A stretch of 64,000 nt of DNA from Betaproteobacteria bacterium (GTDB lineage: Bacteria > Pseudomonadota > Gammaproteobacteria > Burkholderiales > Casimicrobiaceae). The notes below the pieces were generated by a model that worked only from the letters and a program-made list of their open reading frames with translations, had not been told where the DNA came from and did no database searches. The stretch lies in the NCBI GenBank assembly GCA_013298145.1, contig JAAFJO010000001.1:620001-684000 (forward strand). Direction: 5' to 3'. The position numbers and the translations under genes are program-made. Below, one piece after another: positions 4,415-18,654 of the stretch (position 1 is the stretch's first letter; each line of letters begins with the position of its first letter).

Positions 4415-5311
4415 ATGCAGCGCCGCGCGTTCGTTTCCGCGCTGGGCACAGCGCTTCTTACACCCGCGGCCCTCATCGGCTGCGCTGAGATTGGGACCGG
4501 CTATGACGTAACAGATACACCCCGCGAAGGGGCGATTGCGTGGCCCGCCGACCGAGCGCGAACTGCGCTCGTATTGGGCAGTGGAGGGCCGCGTGGTTTT
4601 GCACATGTGGGTGTTTTGAAAGCACTTGAAGCGCAGGGAATCGAACCCTCGCTCATCGTGGGCGCGAGCGCAGGTGCGATTGTTGGCGCACTTTACGCGG
4701 CGCGATTGGCTGCGCGCGAAATCGAAGCGCTCGCGCTTGATCTTGGCGTGCGTCAAATCGCAGATCCCGCAATCTGGCGCCCGAATCGCCTCATCGGGCG
4801 CGCGCTGCAGGATACGATTGTCAACGCCACAAAAATAGCGCGCATTGAAGACTTGCCGCGTCCTTTCGTGGCGGTCGCCGCGAGCGTGTCGGGCGGCAAG
4901 CTCGTGGCGTTTACCAAAGGGCATTTAGGCGCAGCAGTTCGCGCATCCGCCGCGTTGCCATCGATGTTCTTGCCGGTGACAGTGGCTGGCGAGCTCTACG
5001 AAGATGGAGACATGGTGTCCCCTGTGCCGATCCGCGTTGCACGAAGACTCGGCGCAACGCGTGTGGTGGCGGTTGATGTGTCTGCATGGGTTGAGGATGA
5101 GCCTGCGCAAGCGTACGAATCGTGGCGCAAGCGAGACGCCGAGCGACGCGCCATCATCACCGATGAAGCGCTCGACGCAGATTACGTGCTGCGTATTCGA
5201 TTGCCCTACTACGCAGGCGCTTCTCGCGAGTATCGTGAGAACGTGATTGCACTTGGCGAGACGCAAACGCTTGCTGCCACTCAAGACATCCGAAAATTGC
5301 TCGCCGCGTAG
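4415..5311 (+). CDS. Patatin-like phospholipase family protein, exported or lipoprotein-like
   Basis: TALVLGSGGPRGFAHVGVLKALEAQGIEPSLIVGASAGAIVGALYA (oxyanion hole and GxSxG) and a DGD motif (EDGDMVSPVPI). Start chosen at ATG 4415 (MQRRAFVSALGTALLTPAALIGCAE). Confidence 0.88.
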   Translation: MQRRAFVSALGTALLTPAALIGCAEIGTGYDVTDTPREGAIAWPADRARTALVLGSGGPRGFAHVGVLKALEAQGIEPSLIVGASAGAIVGALYAARLAAREIEALALDLGVRQIADPAIWRPNRLIGRALQDTIVNATKIARIEDLPRPFVAVAASVSGGKLVAFTKGHLGAAVRASAALPSMFLPVTVAGELYEDGDMVSPVPIRVARRLGATRVVAVDVSAWVEDEPAQAYESWRKRDAERRAIITDEALDADYVLRIRLPYYAGASREYRENVIALGETQTLAATQDIRKLLAA

Positions 5312-5407
5312 CGGCGTCGCTCGCGCATTCAACTTCGCACACATTTAGCGGTGTCGCCGCGAGCAATTCAAGCGCGCGCTGAAGGAGTCTATCCGCCGCG
5401 CTGACGG

Positions 5408-6406
5408 CTATTTCGATGACCACACACCAACGCCAGTGAATGCCTTTGTGGCGTCAATTTGTAGCCACGCTTTCGCGGCTGAATCATCGCGCAAATACGC
5501 ATCAAGAAATTTACGGCTCGATTGCCCTACGGCATCCTCAATGCGTTTGCGATGTGCGGCGCTCAACGGCGCGGCCTGACGAATCGAGCGCATGCTCTGT
5601 TGTTCGTTGCCGTTAAACACCATGTGATCCGCGCCCTCAAGTACGAGGAGATATTTGTCTCCCGCAGGCTGATGTTCAAACACCGCAGTGCGCTTTTCAA
5701 CCATCTTTTTCATGTTCCGCTCGGCCGCAAACGGCTCGGCGTCTTGCGTGCCTGTAATCGAAAGGAATGGCGCATTCATCGACCCAAATCGATCCGGAAA
5801 TGTACGCGGAAGACCAGTCGCGTTCGGGCTCAATGCGATGAATGCTTTGATGCGAGGATCGGAGAGTGTTTTCACCGGCCCTGGATAGCGCTGACCTGCG
5901 AGCGCCATCGTAGTGTGTGCGCCGAAACTGTGACCTGTCATTGCGATACGGGAAAGATCAACGCGGCTCATCCACGAGGTAGCGTTGCTGCGCTGTTTTC
6001 GCTCGATTTCTGAGATCAAAAAGCGCACATCATCGACTCGGCCAATCAGGTTTTCAGGGGTCGCGATATTTCGCATGCGCTGCTTCGGCTCACCATCGCC
6101 GGAAGCGAACGACTCTCGCAACGCAGGCGTGTCGCTACCCGGATGTTGAACGTGCACCACGAGATAGCCGCTTGCGGACCACACCTCGCCCCAGGTTTTT
6201 CCGCCCTCGACCGAGCCGCCGAGTCCGTGCGAAAAAATCACCAGTGGCGCTTTCGCGGTGCCTTCGGGTACGCGCACCTTGATCGGTATCACGCGATCAC
6301 GGGACGAATCTTTTAGCTCCGTATCGATGATTTGCGGCGCGGCGGCGGATGCACCCGCAAAAAACATGGTCACGGATACAAGTGTGGAGGCGGCGAACTT
6401 TTTCAT
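5408..6406 (-). CDS. Secreted alpha/beta hydrolase (dienelactone hydrolase / PAF-acetylhydrolase-like)
   Basis: Signal peptide; PLVIFSHGLGGSVEGGKTWGEVWSASGYLVVHVQHPGSD and MTGHSFGAHTTMALAG nucleophile elbow. Confidence 0.85.
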   Translation of the reverse strand: MKKFAASTLVSVTMFFAGASAAAPQIIDTELKDSSRDRVIPIKVRVPEGTAKAPLVIFSHGLGGSVEGGKTWGEVWSASGYLVVHVQHPGSDTPALRESFASGDGEPKQRMRNIATPENLIGRVDDVRFLISEIERKQRSNATSWMSRVDLSRIAMTGHSFGAHTTMALAGQRYPGPVKTLSDPRIKAFIALSPNATGLPRTFPDRFGSMNAPFLSITGTQDAEPFAAERNMKKMVEKRTAVFEHQPAGDKYLLVLEGADHMVFNGNEQQSMRSIRQAAPLSAAHRKRIEDAVGQSSRKFLDAYLRDDSAAKAWLQIDATKAFTGVGVWSSK

Positions 6407-6469
6407 AGTGAGAATGTAACGAGCTCTCTGTGCTTGCGTTCACGGGGAAATGCAACTAAACGTTACCGG

Positions 6470-6590
6470 ATTTTTTGACACTGATTTCCGCAGATTGAAC
6501 GCTGATTACCGCAGATTCTCCAAATGGGAGAAGCCACAAAGAAATCTGCGTCGATCTGCGTCGAAATCAGCGTTAATCTGCGTCAAAAGA
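6470..6590. repeat. Inverted repeat of the CGCAGATTACGCTGATTT family
   Basis: ttttttgacactgatttccgcagattgaacgctgattaccgcagatt ... aatctgcgtcgatctgcgtcgaaatcagcgttaatctgcgtcaaaag. Confidence 0.85.
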
Positions 6591-6617
6591 TTCAGGCCAC
6601 TCGAAGATAATTACGCC

Positions 6618-8180
6618 ATGCCCGCAATCGTTCTTTCGACACTCAACGCCCGCTACGCACATGCCTCGCTTGGTATCCGCTATCTATTCGCGAATCTGGA
6701 CGATGATTTGCGTTCAGACGCAAAGATTGTGGAATTCGTGATCGGTAGCAAAACTGAGTCGCTTGTCGAGCAAATCCTTGCCGAAAATCCGCGCGTGGTG
6801 ACCTTCGGCGTTTACATCTGGAATGTGGACGAGACAACGAAAATGATTGCGATGCTGAAAGCGGTTGCGCCGCAAATTAAAGTGGTGATCGGCGGCCCCG
6901 AAGTGAGTTTCGAAATCCCTGAGCAGCGTGTGTGCGCTCTCGCCGATTACGTGATTACCGGCCCCGGCGACATTACGTTGAACAAGCTCGTTCGTGCCTT
7001 GATCCACGGGCCGCGCCCGCTCATGAAAGTGCATCCAGGCGAAGAGCCCGATCTCGAAACGCTCACGCTGCCCTACGCGTACTACACCGACGAAGACATC
7101 GCGAAGCGAAATCTCTATGTCGAGGCCTCGCGCGGCTGCCCATTCAAATGCGAATTTTGTTTGAGTGCGCTCGATAAAACCGCCGTGCCGTTTCCGCTTG
7201 AGAAGTTTCTCGACGAGATGGCGAATCTCTATGATCGCGGCGCGCGCACGTTCAAGTTTGTCGATCGCACATTTAACCTAAACATCAAAGTCTCTCTCGC
7301 GATTCTTGATTTCTTCCTGGAACGAATCAATGCGAAGCCCGATGATCCGTGCTTCGCGCACTTCGAACTCGTTCCCGATCATCTGCCCGAGAAACTAAAG
7401 GCAACGATTGCCAAATTTCCCGCCGGTACTTTGCAATTCGAGATCGGCATTCAAACGTGGAACGTCGATGTGCAAGCGAACATTTCGCGCAAACAGAATA
7501 ACGACAAAGCGAAAGACAATATTCGTTGGCTGCATGAAAACTCTCATGCCCACATGCATGTTGATCTGATCGCAGGCTTACCGGGTGAAACGTTTGCGAG
7601 TTTCGGCCAAGGCTTCGACACGCTCGCGCGACTTGGGCCGCACGAAATTCAAGTCGGCGTATTGAAGCGATTGCGCGGCACGCCGATCATTCGCCACACC
7701 GAGAATTTTGCGATGCGCTACAACCCAGACGCGCCGTACAACATTCTCTCGAACAACGAACTCAACTTCGCGGATTTGCAACGTATCAATCGCTTCGCGA
7801 GATTTTGGGATTTGATTGGCAACAGCGGCCGCTTCCCGCAATCGCTCCCGCTCGTATTGCGCGAAGCGCCAACCTCGGCGTTCGAGCGCTTCCTCGCGCT
7901 CGCCGATTGGATCTACGCCGAAACCGGCGCGACCCACATGATCGCGCTCGAGCGCCTCTTCGATCTCGTATACCGCTGGTTGGTGGAACAGGGCAACGAG
8001 CCCACCGAAACCGCGCAAGCCGCAATCCTCGCTGACTACCAAAAGAGCGGCTCGAAAGGGCGGCTATCGTTTATGCAGCGCGGGTTGACGGTGGGCGATC
8101 AGGCCACAGCAAGCGCCCAACGCGCGACGCCTGCGCGACAGCGAAGGCATTTGGAATCAGTTCAAGCACCTAATAGCTAA
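6618..8180 (+). CDS. B12-binding domain radical SAM protein (DUF4080-type)
   Basis: EASRGCPFKCEFCLSALDK is a radical-SAM CxxxCxxC motif; N-terminal B12-binding-like fold (VIGGPEVSFEIPE). ATG at 6618 preferred; the track's N-terminal extension is translated repeat DNA. Confidence 0.9.
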   Translation: MPAIVLSTLNARYAHASLGIRYLFANLDDDLRSDAKIVEFVIGSKTESLVEQILAENPRVVTFGVYIWNVDETTKMIAMLKAVAPQIKVVIGGPEVSFEIPEQRVCALADYVITGPGDITLNKLVRALIHGPRPLMKVHPGEEPDLETLTLPYAYYTDEDIAKRNLYVEASRGCPFKCEFCLSALDKTAVPFPLEKFLDEMANLYDRGARTFKFVDRTFNLNIKVSLAILDFFLERINAKPDDPCFAHFELVPDHLPEKLKATIAKFPAGTLQFEIGIQTWNVDVQANISRKQNNDKAKDNIRWLHENSHAHMHVDLIAGLPGETFASFGQGFDTLARLGPHEIQVGVLKRLRGTPIIRHTENFAMRYNPDAPYNILSNNELNFADLQRINRFARFWDLIGNSGRFPQSLPLVLREAPTSAFERFLALADWIYAETGATHMIALERLFDLVYRWLVEQGNEPTETAQAAILADYQKSGSKGRLSFMQRGLTVGDQATASAQRATPARQRRHLESVQAPNS

Positions 8181-9835: not shown

Positions 9836-10192
9836 TCGTTTCTCCTACGCGAAGTGCGCATTATCGTGAGTTCGCCGCTGGGCAATTCATCAAAACTGCT
9901 ATGCCAGAGGTTTAACGCAGTGAGTTGATCGCGCAGCTAACGCCGACAAACAACGCTCGTCAAGCGCAACGCGAAAGCACTCGCGCGAGCGCCGCGCCGG
10001 CACGACAGCGGCGGCGCTTGTAAGTAGCGGTCGAGAGCAGATAGCCCAAAACGTCATCGCGAAATTAAATTGGTCGAGCTACTTAAATTAGCATTCTATG
10101 GACAAGATAAATTATCGCTATAGAGCCATACTTCGATGGGGCGATGCGGCCAATTGGAGTAGTCGCTTCAACACTGTGCGTTCGGTGAGAAC

Positions 10193-10292
10193 TGTCATTC
10201 CCGCGAAAGCGGGAACCTACTCATTGATTGATGTTCTCCGTTTCGGAGCGCGGGTGTCGGCAGTGGGTCCCCGCGTTCGCGGTGATGACAGA
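10193..10292. repeat. Palindromic repeat, GTCATTCCCGCGAAAGCGGGAA family
   Basis: tgtcattcccgcgaaagcgggaacc ... gggtccccgcgttcgcggtgatgaca inverted arms. Confidence 0.85.
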
Positions 10293-12469: not shown

Positions 12470-14083
12470 CTATTCCACCAACGCGCTAAACGTTAATCCA
12501 AACCGCGCCAAATACTTGCGCAAGCGATCCGCATCGTTCACTTCACTTCGCTCCTCGCGCGAGACGTTGTAGAGTTTGCGCCCCGCGTCCGAGAGCGTGC
12601 GGCTTTGTTTGCACACACGAATCACGGCTTCGAGTTGCAGGCGGTCGAAGAGATCGAGTTTCGCGAGTGCGGCCTCGTCGACATAGCGCTCGAGATCGAC
12701 ACTTCGCGCGCCCCTGGTCGATGCGTCTTTCGCCCAAAGCCATTTGAGCCGCTCGATTTCAGCATCGACTACGGCCTCGGTGATGCGCCCGCCGTCGGCG
12801 AGTGTGGCCATGCGAGTCACACTTGCGGAGAGATCACGGAAATTTCCTCTCCACGCCCCGTTTACGCCGGACGCGAAGCTCATATAGTGTTTTTTCGCTT
12901 CTACATTAAATCGAGCTTGTTGCCCAACATCTTTGGGGCTAAACGATAAAAGATAGTCTACGTTAGGCTCAATGTCTTCCGGTCGCTCAGCAAGGCCGGG
13001 TAAGGTGTAACTCCAAAGATTGATCCGCGCGAATAAATCCTCTCGAAACTCACCGTGCGCGACCGCATCACGAAGATCGAGATTGGTCCCCGCGATCAAC
13101 TGAAAATCGCTCGCGACTTCCTTATCTGCACCGACCGGATAGAAGCGTTTGTCTTCAATCGCTTTGAGCAGCATCGCTTGTTCATCGAGGCCTAGCGTGC
13201 CGATCTCATCAAGAAAAAGCACGCCTTTGTCAGCGCTGCGAAGTAAGCCCGCGCGATCGGCCATCGCGCCCGTGAACGCGCCTTTTTTGTGACCAAACAA
13301 AGTGGAAGCGGCGCCGTCGCCCATGAGCGTCGCGCAGTTCACTTCAACGAATTCGCCAGTGACGTTGTGTCGCTCTTTCTTCAATTCATAAATGCGCTTC
13401 GCGAGAAAACTTTTCCCCGCGCCTGTGGGGCCGGTCAGCAACACCGGTGCACTGGATCGCAGCGCCACGTGTTCAATCTCATCGATCAAGGCGTTGAAGC
13501 GCTTGTTTTTCGTCGCGATGCCGCTTTTCAAATAGCGCTTGGCATCGTCTGTCGCAATCGCAAAGCGTTTCGCAATCGCGTCGTAGCGCGAAAGGTCAAG
13601 ATCGATCAACGCATAGCTTCCCGGATCGCCTTCGCGCTGCGGGCGCGGCGGCGCAGTTTGCAGGAGCACGCCCGGCAGCACGCGCGCCTCTGCAAGCAAG
13701 AACAAACTAATCTGCGCGACGTGCGTGCCCGTTGTGATGTGAATCCAATAGTCCGATTGCTCCGGATCAAGCTTCTGCGCATGCGCCCAATCAAAGAGCG
13801 CGCCATACATCTCACCAAAGTCCCACGGATCGCACACAGGCAGCGCATGCAATGTGACGCGCGTGTCCGGGCTCACGAGCGCGATATCCGCCACCACTTG
13901 CTCTGCAATCCGCTCATGCCCCGGCGAATGCAACAGCTCAATCGCATCAATCGCGACACCCTCATGCTGCACGATGGAAATCGTAGGACGCCATTTTTGC
14001 CAGCGACCACGCCCGCCGCCTGCATCGAGTTGGGAGCCGAGGAAGCCGATGACGGTGGTGTGTTTTGTGGTTGGTTGTGACAC
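12470..14083 (-). CDS. rtcR: RNA-repair operon transcriptional activator RtcR (CARF-like N-terminus, sigma-54 AAA+ domain)
   Basis: TVIGFLGSQLDAG..., HITTGTHVAQISLFLL (RtcR N-terminal domain), then LLTGPTGAGKSFLAKRI, GHKKGAFTGA and GVLFLDEIGTLGL sigma-54 activator motifs. GTG start at 14083 preferred (MSQPTTKHTTVIGFLG); track start is 14131. Confidence 0.95.
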   Translation of the reverse strand: MSQPTTKHTTVIGFLGSQLDAGGGRGRWQKWRPTISIVQHEGVAIDAIELLHSPGHERIAEQVVADIALVSPDTRVTLHALPVCDPWDFGEMYGALFDWAHAQKLDPEQSDYWIHITTGTHVAQISLFLLAEARVLPGVLLQTAPPRPQREGDPGSYALIDLDLSRYDAIAKRFAIATDDAKRYLKSGIATKNKRFNALIDEIEHVALRSSAPVLLTGPTGAGKSFLAKRIYELKKERHNVTGEFVEVNCATLMGDGAASTLFGHKKGAFTGAMADRAGLLRSADKGVLFLDEIGTLGLDEQAMLLKAIEDKRFYPVGADKEVASDFQLIAGTNLDLRDAVAHGEFREDLFARINLWSYTLPGLAERPEDIEPNVDYLLSFSPKDVGQQARFNVEAKKHYMSFASGVNGAWRGNFRDLSASVTRMATLADGGRITEAVVDAEIERLKWLWAKDASTRGARSVDLERYVDEAALAKLDLFDRLQLEAVIRVCKQSRTLSDAGRKLYNVSREERSEVNDADRLRKYLARFGLTFSALVE

Positions 14084-14140
14084 TCTTTGCTGCTCCTTGT
14101 TCTCTCTAGCGCTGGGTTCCTTGCACCACACCTCAATCTG

Positions 14141-14246
14141 TCATCCCCGCGGAGGCGGGGACCCAGACCCAAACGGTCGAGAAACTACGATCATTTGATC
14201 AACAGCAATCTGCCCGGTCTGGGTTCCCGCCTTCGCGGGAATGTCA
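14141..14246. repeat. Palindromic repeat, GTCATYCCCGCG family, second copy
   Basis: tgtcatccccgcggaggcggggacccagacc ... ggtctgggttcccgccttcgcgggaatgtcag. Confidence 0.85.
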
Positions 14247-14398: not shown

Positions 14399-14414
14399 TG
14401 GCACGCTCGCTGCA
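14399..14414 (+). promoter_or_regulatory. Sigma-54 (-24/-12) promoter of the tRNA-like/slipin/rtcB operon
   Basis: TGGCACGCTCGCTGCA: the -24 GG and -12 GC are separated by exactly 10 nt; near-consensus TGGCACG-N4-(T/C)TGCA. Confidence 0.85.
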
Positions 14415-14545
14415 ATAGAGGAAACGTCAAACAGAAAACATGATGCGCTTACAGGTTCTAGGGGTTTGCTCCCCGCCGGTGCGCGATGCCTCGAATGGTT
14501 CGAGTTGCGTGTTGCGTATGCCGCCGCATGTGGACTGCTTGATAT

Positions 14546-14602
14546 GAAGTTCTCTTGGCGACAGCGGCAACGCTGTTGGGTTCGATTCCCTTGAATTTCT
14601 CC
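14546..14602 (+). ncRNA. Candidate truncated tRNA-like element
   Basis: 7-bp acceptor-like stem GAAGTTC (14546-14552)/GAATTTC (14593-14599), internal 8-bp hairpin CGACAGCG-GCAA-CGCTGTTG (14559-14578), and a canonical T-loop GG-TTCGATT-CC (14579-14589). Confidence 0.5.
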
Positions 14603-14678
14603 TTTTGGATAGCTCAATCGGCAGAGCAATCGACCACGAATCGATATGTAGCGGGTTCGAATCCCGTTCCAAAAACCA
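14603..14678 (+). ncRNA. tRNA-like RNA of the slipin-RtcB RNA-repair operon (76 nt, encoded CCA; ACG in the anticodon position)
   Basis: Cloverleaf: acceptor TTTTGGA/TCCAAAA; D stem GCTC/GAGC with loop AATCGGCA; anticodon stem ATCGA/TCGAT with loop CCACGAA; variable ATGTA; T arm GCGGG-TTCGAAT-CCCGT; then A-CCA. Position 33 is C instead of U. Confidence 0.88.
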
Positions 14679-14989
14679 GGCCTTGAAAGCCACCATGAAA
14701 CCGAGCCGCAAGGCTCACCGCCGAATGCAAATCGGCAACGCGGACAGCGAAGCATCAAAACGCGAAAGCGAATTGACGCGGCGGTGGAAGCGAAGACGAT
14801 TTGTCAGCCCGCGCGCTCTGCGATACGCAAGAGGCGAGGGCAAACGGCACGGCAGCGTTACTTGTGATGCGTTTGATGCAGTTTGATCGAGCGCAAAGCG
14901 AGCGACAACACCGATGCCCGATGTTCAACGCAAGCGAATCCCGCGAGTGGACTGTAACGGCAACACTCACGAACAAAGGAAGAACAAAA

Positions 14990-16126
14990 ATGAAATTTAA
15001 TCGAGTAAGTGTGCGCAAAACCGAACGAGCGGTCCTCTTGCGCAATGGCGATTTCGAGCGCGTGCTCGCGCCAGGTCAATACTGGTTTCCTACGCTCTTC
15101 GACAAGATTGTCGTGGAGCGAAACGAGATGGCGCAGCCACTCTACATCGGCGCCGCTGCCGACTATTTGCTGGCGACCCCAAGCGATGCCGCAAACGAAT
15201 ACTTCGTGCGCGTCGAGCTGAACGATACGCAAGCCGGTCTTTTGTATGAGAACGATTCGCTCGTCGAGCTTTTGCCGCCTGCGACGCGTCGTTTGTATTG
15301 GAAGACTTCGGCAAACGTGCGCGTTGAAACCGTTGAGCTTTCGGGTGAAGGGGAGCTTGCGAAAGACTTGATCGCAAAGATCACGCATTCGCAATTGAAG
15401 CGTCGCGCGGTCGCGGGTTTGCAAGCGGTGTTGCAAGTGCAAGTGCCGGAATTCAACGTGGGTTTGCTCACGATTGACGGAAAGCTCGTGCGCTCGCTCA
15501 CGCCCGGCGCGTATGCGTTCTGGCGATTCAACCGCAACGTTTCCGTGGAATACGTGGATTTGCGCGTGCAGGCGGTTGAAGTCACCGGTCAAGAAATCTT
15601 GACGCGAGACAAAGTGGCGCTGCGGCTCAACCTTGGCGCAACGTGGCGATATGCGGACGTGTTGAAAGCGTTCGCGACGACTGCGAAGCCGGTGGATAAC
15701 CTCTATCGCGAATTGCAGTTTGCATTGCGCGCCGCAGTGGGAACGCAGTCGCTCGACGAGTTGCTGGAAAACAAAACGGCGCTTGATGAGAAGGTTGCAT
15801 CCGCAGTGCGCGAGCGTATAGCGAATGCAGGTATCGCGCTTGAGGCCGTGGGTGTGAAAGACATCATCCTGCCGGGCGAGATGAAAGCGATCCTCGCGCA
15901 AGTCGTAGAAGCGGAAAAAGTAGCGCAAGCCAACTTGATCCGTCGCCGCGAAGAAACCGCTGCATCGCGCTCGCTATTGAACACAGCGAAAGTGATGGAA
16001 GACAACCCAGTGGCGCTACGCCTGAAAGAGCTAGAAACGCTGGAACGCGTCGCGGAACGCATCGACAAAATCTCTGTGTTCGGAGGTTTGGATGGTGTGT
16101 TGAATGCGTTGGCAAAGGCCAAATGA
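14990..16126 (+). CDS. Slipin / SPFH-Band-7 family protein
   Basis: MKFNRVSVRKTERAVLLRNGDFERVLAPGQYWF, VLQVQVPEFNVGLLTIDGKLVRSLTPGAYAFW, IALEAVGVKDIILPGEMKAILAQVVEAEKVAQANLIRRREETAASRSLLNTAKVMEDNP are SPFH/Band-7 features. ATG 14990 preferred over the longer track ORF. Confidence 0.92.
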   Translation: MKFNRVSVRKTERAVLLRNGDFERVLAPGQYWFPTLFDKIVVERNEMAQPLYIGAAADYLLATPSDAANEYFVRVELNDTQAGLLYENDSLVELLPPATRRLYWKTSANVRVETVELSGEGELAKDLIAKITHSQLKRRAVAGLQAVLQVQVPEFNVGLLTIDGKLVRSLTPGAYAFWRFNRNVSVEYVDLRVQAVEVTGQEILTRDKVALRLNLGATWRYADVLKAFATTAKPVDNLYRELQFALRAAVGTQSLDELLENKTALDEKVASAVRERIANAGIALEAVGVKDIILPGEMKAILAQVVEAEKVAQANLIRRREETAASRSLLNTAKVMEDNPVALRLKELETLERVAERIDKISVFGGLDGVLNALAKAK

Positions 16127-16132
16127 GACTCC

Positions 16133-16256
16133 CTCCCCTTCAAGGGGAGGGCGGGGTGGGGATGGGGTTCTTTTGTAGCGCTATCAAACCCCATCCCCCT
16201 CCCGTCGATACACTTTTCGACAAGCATGTCTACGTCCCCCTTGAAGGGGGAGGAAA
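16133..16256. repeat. CTCCCCTTCAAGGGGAGGG family palindromic repeat between slipin and rtcB
   Basis: ctccccttcaaggggagggcggggtggggatgggg ... ccccatccccctcccgtcg ... cccccttgaagggggagg. Confidence 0.85.
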
Positions 16257-16266
16257 CCAGCAGAGA

Positions 16267-17493
16267 ATGACTCAGATAAAAAACTACAACGAAATCAAAA
16301 CCGAAAACGTCCCGATCAAGATGTGGACGAAGGGCGTGCCTGTTGAGGACGACGCTCAGAAGCAACTCATCAACGCTTCGAAATTGCCGATTGTGTTTAA
16401 GCACATCGCCGCGATGCCGGATGTGCATTTGGGGATTGGTGCGACCGTGGGCTCGGTGATTCCTACGTTGCGGGCGATCATTCCGGCGGCTGTCGGCGTG
16501 GACATCGGTTGCGGGATGATTGCTTGCAAGACGACGTTAAGCGCGAGTGATTTACCGGATAACTTGTTGCCGCTTCGTAGCGCGATTGAGCGTGCGGTAC
16601 CGCATGGGCGCGTGGCGATGCGCGGGAAGCGAGACACCGGTGCGTGGGATACGCCGCCGGATGAAGCGGATGCTGCGTGGGCGAAGCTCGCGTCGGGGTT
16701 CGATGAAATCACTGAGATCGAACCGCGCTTGAAAAACACGAACAACCGAAAGCATTTGGGAACGCTTGGAACGGGTAACCATTTCATTGAGATTTGTCTC
16801 GATGAAACGCAATCGGTGTGGATCATGCTGCATTCGGGTTCGCGCGGCGTGGGTAACGCGATTGGAACGCTCTACATCGAGCGCGCTCGCGAAGAAGCGA
16901 TCAAACACAACATGAATTTGCCCGACAAAGATCTGGCGTACTTCGAAGAAGGCTCCAAATATTTCGGTGACTACGTACGTGGCGTGAGCTGGGCGCAGCA
17001 ATTCGCGAAGTTAAATCGCGAAGTGATGATGCAGCGCGTGATTGCTGCGATGAAAAACGTGATCGCGAAACCGTTTGAGACGCATCTCGAAGCGGTGAAT
17101 TGTCATCACAACTACGTGAGCCGCGAAACGCATTTCGGCGAAGAGGTGTTCGTGACGCGCAAGGGCGCGGTGAGCGCGAAGGCGGGTGAGCTTGGCATCA
17201 TTCCGGGATCGATGGGCGCGAAAAGCTACATCGTGCGCGGAAAAGGCAACCCGGAAAGCTTCATGTCGTGCAGCCACGGCGCAGGACGCACGATGAGTCG
17301 CACGCAAGCGAAAAAGCGCTTCACGCTCGCCGATCACATCAAAGCGACCGAAGGCGTTGAATGCCGAAAAGACGAAGACGTGATCGACGAGATTCCGATG
17401 GCGTACAAGGATATTGATGCCGTGATGGAAGCGCAGCGGGATTTGGTGGATGTGGTTTACACACTTAAACAAGTGGTTTGTGTGAAGGGGTAG
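16267..17493 (+). CDS. rtcB: RNA 3'-phosphate/2',3'-cyclic phosphate-splicing ligase RtcB
   Basis: AAMPDVHLGIGATVGSVIPT, AAVGVDIGCGMIACKT, LGTGNHFIEICLDE, MLHSGSRGVGN, CSHGAGRTMSRTQAKKRF are RtcB motifs. ATG 16267 preferred, after an SD-like ggaggaaa. Confidence 0.96.
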   Translation: MTQIKNYNEIKTENVPIKMWTKGVPVEDDAQKQLINASKLPIVFKHIAAMPDVHLGIGATVGSVIPTLRAIIPAAVGVDIGCGMIACKTTLSASDLPDNLLPLRSAIERAVPHGRVAMRGKRDTGAWDTPPDEADAAWAKLASGFDEITEIEPRLKNTNNRKHLGTLGTGNHFIEICLDETQSVWIMLHSGSRGVGNAIGTLYIERAREEAIKHNMNLPDKDLAYFEEGSKYFGDYVRGVSWAQQFAKLNREVMMQRVIAAMKNVIAKPFETHLEAVNCHHNYVSRETHFGEEVFVTRKGAVSAKAGELGIIPGSMGAKSYIVRGKGNPESFMSCSHGAGRTMSRTQAKKRFTLADHIKATEGVECRKDEDVIDEIPMAYKDIDAVMEAQRDLVDVVYTLKQVVCVKG

Positions 17494-17496
17494 ATC

Positions 17497-17928
17497 ATGG
17501 TGTTGAGAACGCCATCAAAGGAAAAGAAAACGCAGTCATTCAAGAGCGGGAAACAGCGTCGCGCAGAAATTGTTGCGCGGCGTCGGAAAGGTAATCCGGC
17601 TGTTGAGTGGATTGATCCGTTGCTGAACAAGGACAACTGGCCGAAGGGCGCGGTCGCCGCGAACCTTGAAGCGCTCGGGCGTAACAACACCTACGGTCTA
17701 CTCCCAAACTATTACGTCGATAAGCCTTTCAAATGTCGCGACTGCGGCATCGAGGAGGTGTGGCGAGCTACACAGCAGAAGTGGTACTACGAAGTAGCTA
17801 AGGGGCGTATCGAGGCAACGGCGGCACGTTGCAAATCGTGTCGTCGAAAAGAGCGTGAACGGAAAGAGAAAGCGCGAGCGGCGTCGCTGCCTGGATTACT
17901 CGCGAAGCGAATGCGGCCGCAGAGTTGA
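17497..17928 (+). CDS. Zinc-ribbon (zf-trcl-like) protein of the rtcB operon
   Basis: FKCRDCGIEEVWRATQQKWYYEVAKGRIEATAARCKSCRRKERERKEKAR resembles the probable zinc-ribbon zf-trcl (CxxCG...FY..KG...RCxxCR). Starts 4 bp after rtcB ends. Confidence 0.75.
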   Translation: MVLRTPSKEKKTQSFKSGKQRRAEIVARRRKGNPAVEWIDPLLNKDNWPKGAVAANLEALGRNNTYGLLPNYYVDKPFKCRDCGIEEVWRATQQKWYYEVAKGRIEATAARCKSCRRKERERKEKARAASLPGLLAKRMRPQS

Positions 17929-17937
17929 AGCGTAGAG

Positions 17938-18654
17938 ATGAATACTATTCCATCATTCAAGAGTTCAGTGCTGACCGACATCGAGTCGACTCGATTGTTG
18001 AGATCGGCTTTTCCGCGTTCGTTGGAGGTTTACGTTGACAACGCGTTGCGCGTTGTACCGCTTGCTGAGACGAGACCGTTTGTGAACGAACACGCGAGCG
18101 TCGATGTGCGCGGCGAAGAGTTCTGCTTGCTTCGACGTGTTTACTTTGATTACGCGTACATCAAAGACGGCGGTTGGCACACTCACGCGCGATGGCAGTT
18201 GCCTTCGCTTGAGCAGGACATTCTGGCGTGTATCTACAGCACTCATCATGACGGTACGGTGCGCGCGCAGACGATCAATCGACTGATCGAATCGCGACAC
18301 GACTGGGCACTCCCGTACCTATTGAACTTGGTAAGCGACTATGTCATTGAAGTTACGGAATTGATCGACTACCGAGTTAACCGAATCAATGCGGATCGTT
18401 TGCGGGAGTTTGCCGCAACAAACCGCCAATTTATCTCTCGATCCGCCGATCGAGCGCTAAGCTATTGGGACCTAGGCCATCGAGTACGTCACCACTCGGG
18501 TGCCGATCAACCACAGTATGAGTGGCTGGAAGATTACCCGGCTTACAAAACGCTAAGGCAGCTCGAACTTTGGCCGCGATTGCTCGCGAGGAAGTCGCTT
18601 CGCAAGCAGCGAAGACTTCGGGCCAGACGAATCGCGCGAGCATTGGAAAAGTAG
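17938..18654 (+). CDS. Uncharacterised protein, likely last gene of the rtcB operon
   Basis: 238-aa ORF starting 10 bp after the zinc-ribbon gene, same strand; basic C-terminus; no family recognised. Confidence 0.7.
   Translation: MNTIPSFKSSVLTDIESTRLLRSAFPRSLEVYVDNALRVVPLAETRPFVNEHASVDVRGEEFCLLRRVYFDYAYIKDGGWHTHARWQLPSLEQDILACIYSTHHDGTVRAQTINRLIESRHDWALPYLLNLVSDYVIEVTELIDYRVNRINADRLREFAATNRQFISRSADRALSYWDLGHRVRHHSGADQPQYEWLEDYPAYKTLRQLELWPRLLARKSLRKQRRLRARRIARALEK

Follow-up and report, generated by a model that had tools for sequence, protein, structure and literature searches.

A putative non-decoding tRNA mimic in a slipin-RtcB operon leader of a Casimicrobiaceae bacterium

Described tRNA mimics and tRNA arrays of repair operons

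YrlA is a tRNA mimic that sits in the Rsr-type rtc repair operons; its binding partners include PNPase as well as DusA and TruB (PMC8394870, PMC7790460), the latter two of which modify it (PMC8394870). RtcR binds 5′ tRNA halves, and those that carry a cyclic phosphate activate it (PMC7790460). In Anabaena, the repressor TrcR controls the trn tRNA array, rtcB, and a slipin gene (PMC10272220). For the rtc locus of P. aeruginosa, an SPFH gene was noted in a 2026 paper in which tRNA is unmentioned (PMC13086221).

The locus described here lies in a window of 64,000 nt (the whole stretch of DNA that was analysed), where a tRNA-like domain, designated TLS2, is situated in the leader of a slipin gene. 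The leader RNA resembles YrlA (RF02553, rsr-yrlBA-rtcBA) in that both mimic tRNA, have D- and T-arms that are conserved, and belong to RtcR-controlled repair operons, and the tRNA-like D-, T-, and acceptor arms expected of a Y RNA were present. It differs from YrlA in that its fold has the normal tRNA order, is mostly doubled, and is embedded in an RNA of about 550 nt upstream of slipin. No match to RF02553 was obtained in the window leader at E ≤ 10, nor in the slipin leaders at E ≤ 0.05, while the leader of a control Rsr operon (locus L095) matched the family with 62 bits (E = 1e-11), which is below its gathering score. Searches for TROVE (Rsr/Ro60) gave 0 matches in the own genome, and Rsr had no match in 100 slipin loci. 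Membership in YrlA was rejected because Rsr is absent from the genome and RF02553 was not matched. Three rtcR loci of small genomes (L094 to L096) carried several tandem YrlA-like RNAs, which precede Rsr in L095.

Three other kinds of RNA were compared. As with the Anabaena trn array, tRNA arrays occur upstream of slipin-RtcB in some relatives, but TLS2 is part of the slipin leader rather than an array tRNA. TLS2 shares non-decoding tRNA mimicry with the tRNA-like domain of tmRNA, from which the leader RNA differs in lacking a tag reading frame and an mRNA-like domain; a separate tmRNA was called in the own genome by ARAGORN. The tmRNA call in the window (nt 4626–4793, minus strand) is only 168 nt long and has an unusual tag, ASASISRAANRAA; it may represent a permuted form in two pieces. 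A T-box or attenuator was rejected, since the window leader had neither a T-box match in Rfam nor a terminator-like site on the plus strand. No Rfam family other than tRNA was recognised in the slipin leaders, and no description of the RNA was found in the open-access literature searched. By these searches, the leader RNA appears to be a previously undescribed addition to the tRNA-mimicking RNAs of repair operons.

Organization of the locus and its leader

The features of the locus are as follows.

12470–14131, minus strand: RtcR, sigma-54 activator of RNA repair, divergent (NF038308, 780 bits against a cut-off of 650; Pfam RtcR (CARF) and Sigma54_activat)
14399–14414, plus strand: sigma-54 (-24/-12) type promoter, TGGCACGCTCGCTGCA, read from the sequence and kept in same-genus relatives
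14434–14527, plus strand: conserved 5′ domain of the leader RNA (alignment A4; model R2 finds one copy in the own genome)
14546–14602, plus strand: TLS1, minimal tRNA-like domain (sequence, hairpin covariation, acceptor pairing)
14603–14678, plus strand: TLS2, the reported element, putative non-decoding tRNA-like domain (ARAGORN, Rfam, 65-sequence alignment A2)
14703–14716, plus strand: hairpin GAGCC-GCAA-GGCTC after TLS2 (sequence, clade-wise RNAalifold)
14717–14969, plus strand: predicted 3′ domain of the leader RNA, ending about 20 nt before slipin (conserved blocks in relatives, clade-wise RNAalifold)
14990–16126, plus strand: slipin (SPFH/Band 7), first gene after the leader (Pfam Band_7, 103.7 bits)
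16123–17493, plus strand: RtcB RNA ligase, whose true start may be inside the ORF (Pfam RtcB, 431 bits)
17497–17928, plus strand: zinc-finger (zf_Tbcl) protein of the operon (Pfam PF13451, 54.7 bits), with relatives in other rtc operons

A protein of 238 aa encoded last in the operon (nt 17938–18654) matched neither Pfam nor NCBIfam. Between rtcR and the promoter there is a REP-like inverted repeat (nt 14141–14165 and 14220–14245, ATCCCCGCGGAGGCGGGGA ... TTCCCGCCTTCGCGGGAA), with similar sequence near nt 10130–10260.

TLS2 was called as tRNA-Arg(acg) by ARAGORN at exactly nt 14603–14678, the label that the initial annotation had foreseen from an automated caller, and it matched the Rfam tRNA family RF00005 over nt 14603–14675 with 60.8 bits (E = 1e-10), a score far above chance level. 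The element is thus a real tRNA-like fold of 76 nt, with arms of 7/4/5/5 bp, a fully paired seven-bp acceptor, the anticodon loop CCACGAA, C33, and A15/A48, all as first described, and its assignment to an mRNA leader was borne out by the slipin start at nt 14990 and the divergent rtcR. Genes for tRNA-Arg(ACG), the presence of which had been proposed as a check, exist elsewhere in the own genome, and the tRNA genes there that are most similar to TLS2 have only about 50 of 76 bases in common with it. The identical unusual loop CCACGAA was also observed, on unrelated stems, in loci of this genus and of Pseudomonas (L169, L181, and L185). Outside the window, about 25 tRNA genes, many of them low-scoring, lie on one strand (G000:C1:862842–865499) in a cluster that resembles stress-induced tRNA arrays.

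Comparison of homologous leaders indicates that two tRNA-like domains, of which TLS2 is the second, stand in tandem within a conserved structured RNA of some 550 nt that lies between the sigma-54 promoter and slipin. The sigma-54-type motif was present in most RtcR-adjacent homologues and missing from most of those without adjacent RtcR. For the 5′ domain, on which the covariance model R2 is based, compensatory changes were seen at 16 of 20 pairs among the 46 sequences of A4. TLS1, a cryptic second domain directly upstream of TLS2 that had been missed earlier, consists of an acceptor (nt 14546–14552/14593–14599), a short GCAA hairpin replacing the D- and anticodon arms (nt 14561–14576), and a T-arm (T-loop at nt 14581–14587). 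Its hairpin covaries in relatives, and its acceptor forms 6 to 7 of 7 pairs in 68 of 73 homologues, compared with 41% when the strands were swapped. The same order of parts, with the hairpin and the 3′ domain after TLS2, was obtained in five clades by clade-wise RNAalifold; the structure of the 3′ domain, based on clade-by-clade pairing prediction, is tentative.

In 34 of the 73 homologues, a CCA was located 12–13 nt past the T-loop of TLS1, just before TLS2. This CCA, the well-paired TLS1 acceptor, and the tRNA array context in several lineages would fit a processing signal, in which RNase P and RNase Z cut the tRNA-like folds and separate the leader or an upstream tRNA array from the slipin mRNA. 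Such a role is nevertheless unlikely, given that the outer acceptor pairs of TLS2 are mostly unpaired with CCA absent, that RtcR operons have nothing upstream needing separation, and that cutting would break the conserved RNA.

Conservation and divergence of TLS2

Pairing in TLS2 was compared with slid partners and shuffles in alignment A2, which comprises 65 sequences. Paired cells amounted to 89.9%, as against 32–43% when partners were slid, and the covariation score was 0.449, as against 0.139 for shuffled alignments. The anticodon stem was 97.5% paired, and each of its five pairs had changes in both partners. The T-arm was 99.7% paired and the D-arm invariant across the 65 sequences, and together with the D-loop GG and the T-loop TTCGA these arms were near-invariant. 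The outer three acceptor pairs formed in 26, 46, and 57% of the sequences. Since the D- and T-arms are near-constant while the outer acceptor pairs degenerate, the elbow formed by these two arms is the conserved part of TLS2.

The anticodon loop varied freely among 72 homologues, ranging from 3 to 15 nt. Loops of 7 nt were found in 36 of them, the remainder having 3–6 nt or, once, 15 nt, and many loops had GNRA-like tips. Among the 36 seven-nt loops, many of which had the form CU-NNN-AA, there were 19 different anticodons, and position 33 was U in 28 and C in 5. Across homologues, ARAGORN accordingly gave the TLS2 domains many different tRNA names. Same-genus relatives kept the leader with the TLS2 loop and 3′ end altered: one has a loop of 6 nt, and another has CCAAAACCTGG in place of the ACCA end, which is peculiar to the window sequence. 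A CCA at the exact tRNA position of TLS2 was present in 3 of 73 homologues. Both C33 and the encoded CCA are therefore local quirks of the window sequence.

With canonical tRNA (RF00005), TLS2 shares the cloverleaf, the D-loop GG, the T-loop TTCGA, and D- and T-arm sequence; it differs in its variable anticodon loop, in an acceptor that is short in most homologues, in having no conserved CCA, and in being embedded in a leader. Because the fold is kept by covariation while the anticodon loop is free in length and sequence, and because the genome encodes tRNA-Arg(ACG) elsewhere, it is well supported by these comparisons that TLS2 is a tRNA mimic in an mRNA leader rather than a decoding tRNA. A genuine tRNA-Arg(ACG), or a decaying pseudogene of one, would account for the ARAGORN call and the good Rfam score, and is extremely improbable: anticodon and loop length differ among orthologues in the presence of normal tRNA-Arg(ACG) genes, on which grounds the former was rejected, and the strong covariation in A2 excludes decay.

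The initial annotation had reached the same reading, a non-decoding mimic in a leader, partly on other grounds. C33 is a weak argument for it, and as a functional hallmark it was rejected, U33 being commoner in homologues; A15/A48 is equally weak, as this pair is not conserved. An alignment of leaders had been suggested to look for compensatory changes and for conservation of C33, of which the former were found and the latter was not. U33 in homologues had been named as evidence against mimicry; it is indeed common, but the set of anticodons looks random, so that decoding still lacks support. The proposal that CCA-handling enzymes recognise the element did not survive for TLS2, in which the outer acceptor pairs degenerate and CCA is nearly always absent, and CCA-dependent recognition was rejected because CCA is not conserved there.

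The loops bear on another possible role, that of bait for anticodon nucleases, the cut products of which would feed RtcR in a positive feedback. Half of the TLS2 loops have 7 nt, many with CU-NNN-AA, and 5′ tRNA halves are bound by RtcR (PMC7790460). The other half have 3–6 nt or 15 nt, the leader RNA also occurs in lineages without adjacent RtcR, and the Salmonella nuclease leaves YrlA uncut (PMC7790460), which together make this role very improbable.

Linkage to slipin and proposed function

A sample of 80 slipin loci was taken from named genomes, 79 of which had enough upstream DNA for scoring TLS2. R2 matched 78 of the 80 and TLS2 was present in 75 of the 79, although many of these loci were training sequences for the models; these and the following linkage counts are raw and ignore relatedness. 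The independent test, a whole-genome search with R2, covered 350 genomes of the order, with matches in 17, and 399 of the phylum, with matches in 7; each of these genomes had a single match, which always lay just upstream of a slipin gene. In the order sample, 28 of 29 slipin genomes had the 5′ domain or TLS2 upstream, an approximate count, as a real tRNA could be taken for TLS2 where a tRNA array adjoins. Among RtcR loci, a TLS domain was found in 13 of 13 headed by slipin and in 0 of 20 tested with other heads, the YrlA-type RNAs of L095 and L096 apart. The RNA is thus tied to slipin and conserved in many Proteobacteria, the tandem mimic ranging from Burkholderiales to Pseudomonas and to Photobacterium, in which both TLS domains are present.

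In most slipin loci, RtcR is adjacent and a sigma-54-type site is present. RtcR is not adjacent in lineages of the Rubrivivax/Roseateles/Ideonella type and some others, in which the block is often preceded by a tRNA array of the same orientation, sometimes with RtcB within the array region. In L225, L216, and L218 (genomes G076, G134, and G209), RtcB is upstream of the TLS leader and slipin, and in L225 it is embedded in a large tRNA array. Two slipin loci were found on viral contigs, one of which (L228) has a tRNA-like match upstream.

The leader RNA is always directly upstream of slipin, 230–510 nt from its start, and is kept behind both sigma-54 promoters and tRNA arrays. This would suit a cis-acting sensor, in which RtcB, a tRNA nuclease, or a maturation enzyme would be bound by the TLS domains, and either this contact or a cut would alter slipin and RtcB expression from that transcript. 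A sensor of this kind is a possibility that we hold only tentatively: the window leader has no plus-strand terminator-like site, the ribosome-binding site is predicted to be one of the most open regions of the leader, and plain hairpins stand in place of the TLS domains in some species. Such hairpins replace both domains in P. donghuensis and P. aegrilactucae and TLS1 in P. aeruginosa PA7, and Ideonella has no TLS2; mimicry therefore seems dispensable in some lineages.

We favour, with a probability of roughly 0.55, a free-standing tRNA-mimicking RNA that serves as a tether or decoy and is the slipin-operon counterpart of Salmonella YrlA. Cut tRNAs would lead to transcription of the operon, and the leader RNA would be made together with slipin and RtcB. 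Its elbow, imitating tRNA, would bind tRNA-handling proteins, for which modification enzymes, an exonuclease such as PNPase, RtcB itself, or a tRNA nuclease are candidates, and the RNA would then tether these proteins or act as their decoy, filling in slipin operons the place that YrlA has in Rsr operons. The predicted open ribosome-binding site (79 leaders), a trait common in mRNAs, and the lack of a plus-strand terminator in the window argue modestly for a free-standing over a cis-acting RNA; the constant position before slipin also fits a cis-acting leader. A more specific proposal, which we regard as rather doubtful, is that this new large structured RNA forms a ribonucleoprotein with the RtcB-associated slipin, whereby the tandem mimics would recruit tRNA-handling or repair enzymes to a membrane scaffold upon tRNA breakage.

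Repair operons that respond to broken tRNAs thus carry a tRNA mimic of their own, and tRNA mimicry may recur in them with two protein partners, Rsr or slipin. A conserved tandem mimic tied to slipin offers a concrete RNA for experimental study of the roles of both. The TLS domains may also be misannotated in genomes as tRNA genes with unusual anticodons.

The slipin leaders of E. coli and Citrobacter kept the T-arm hairpin alone, which likewise speaks against the favoured role. Slipin with its leader in the E. coli form was present in 1629 of 5426 complete E. coli genomes, and in one such locus (L229, nt 4690–6928) slipin and a nucleotidyltransferase gene, with a sigma-54-type site, are located between rluF/DUF3811 and lysC.
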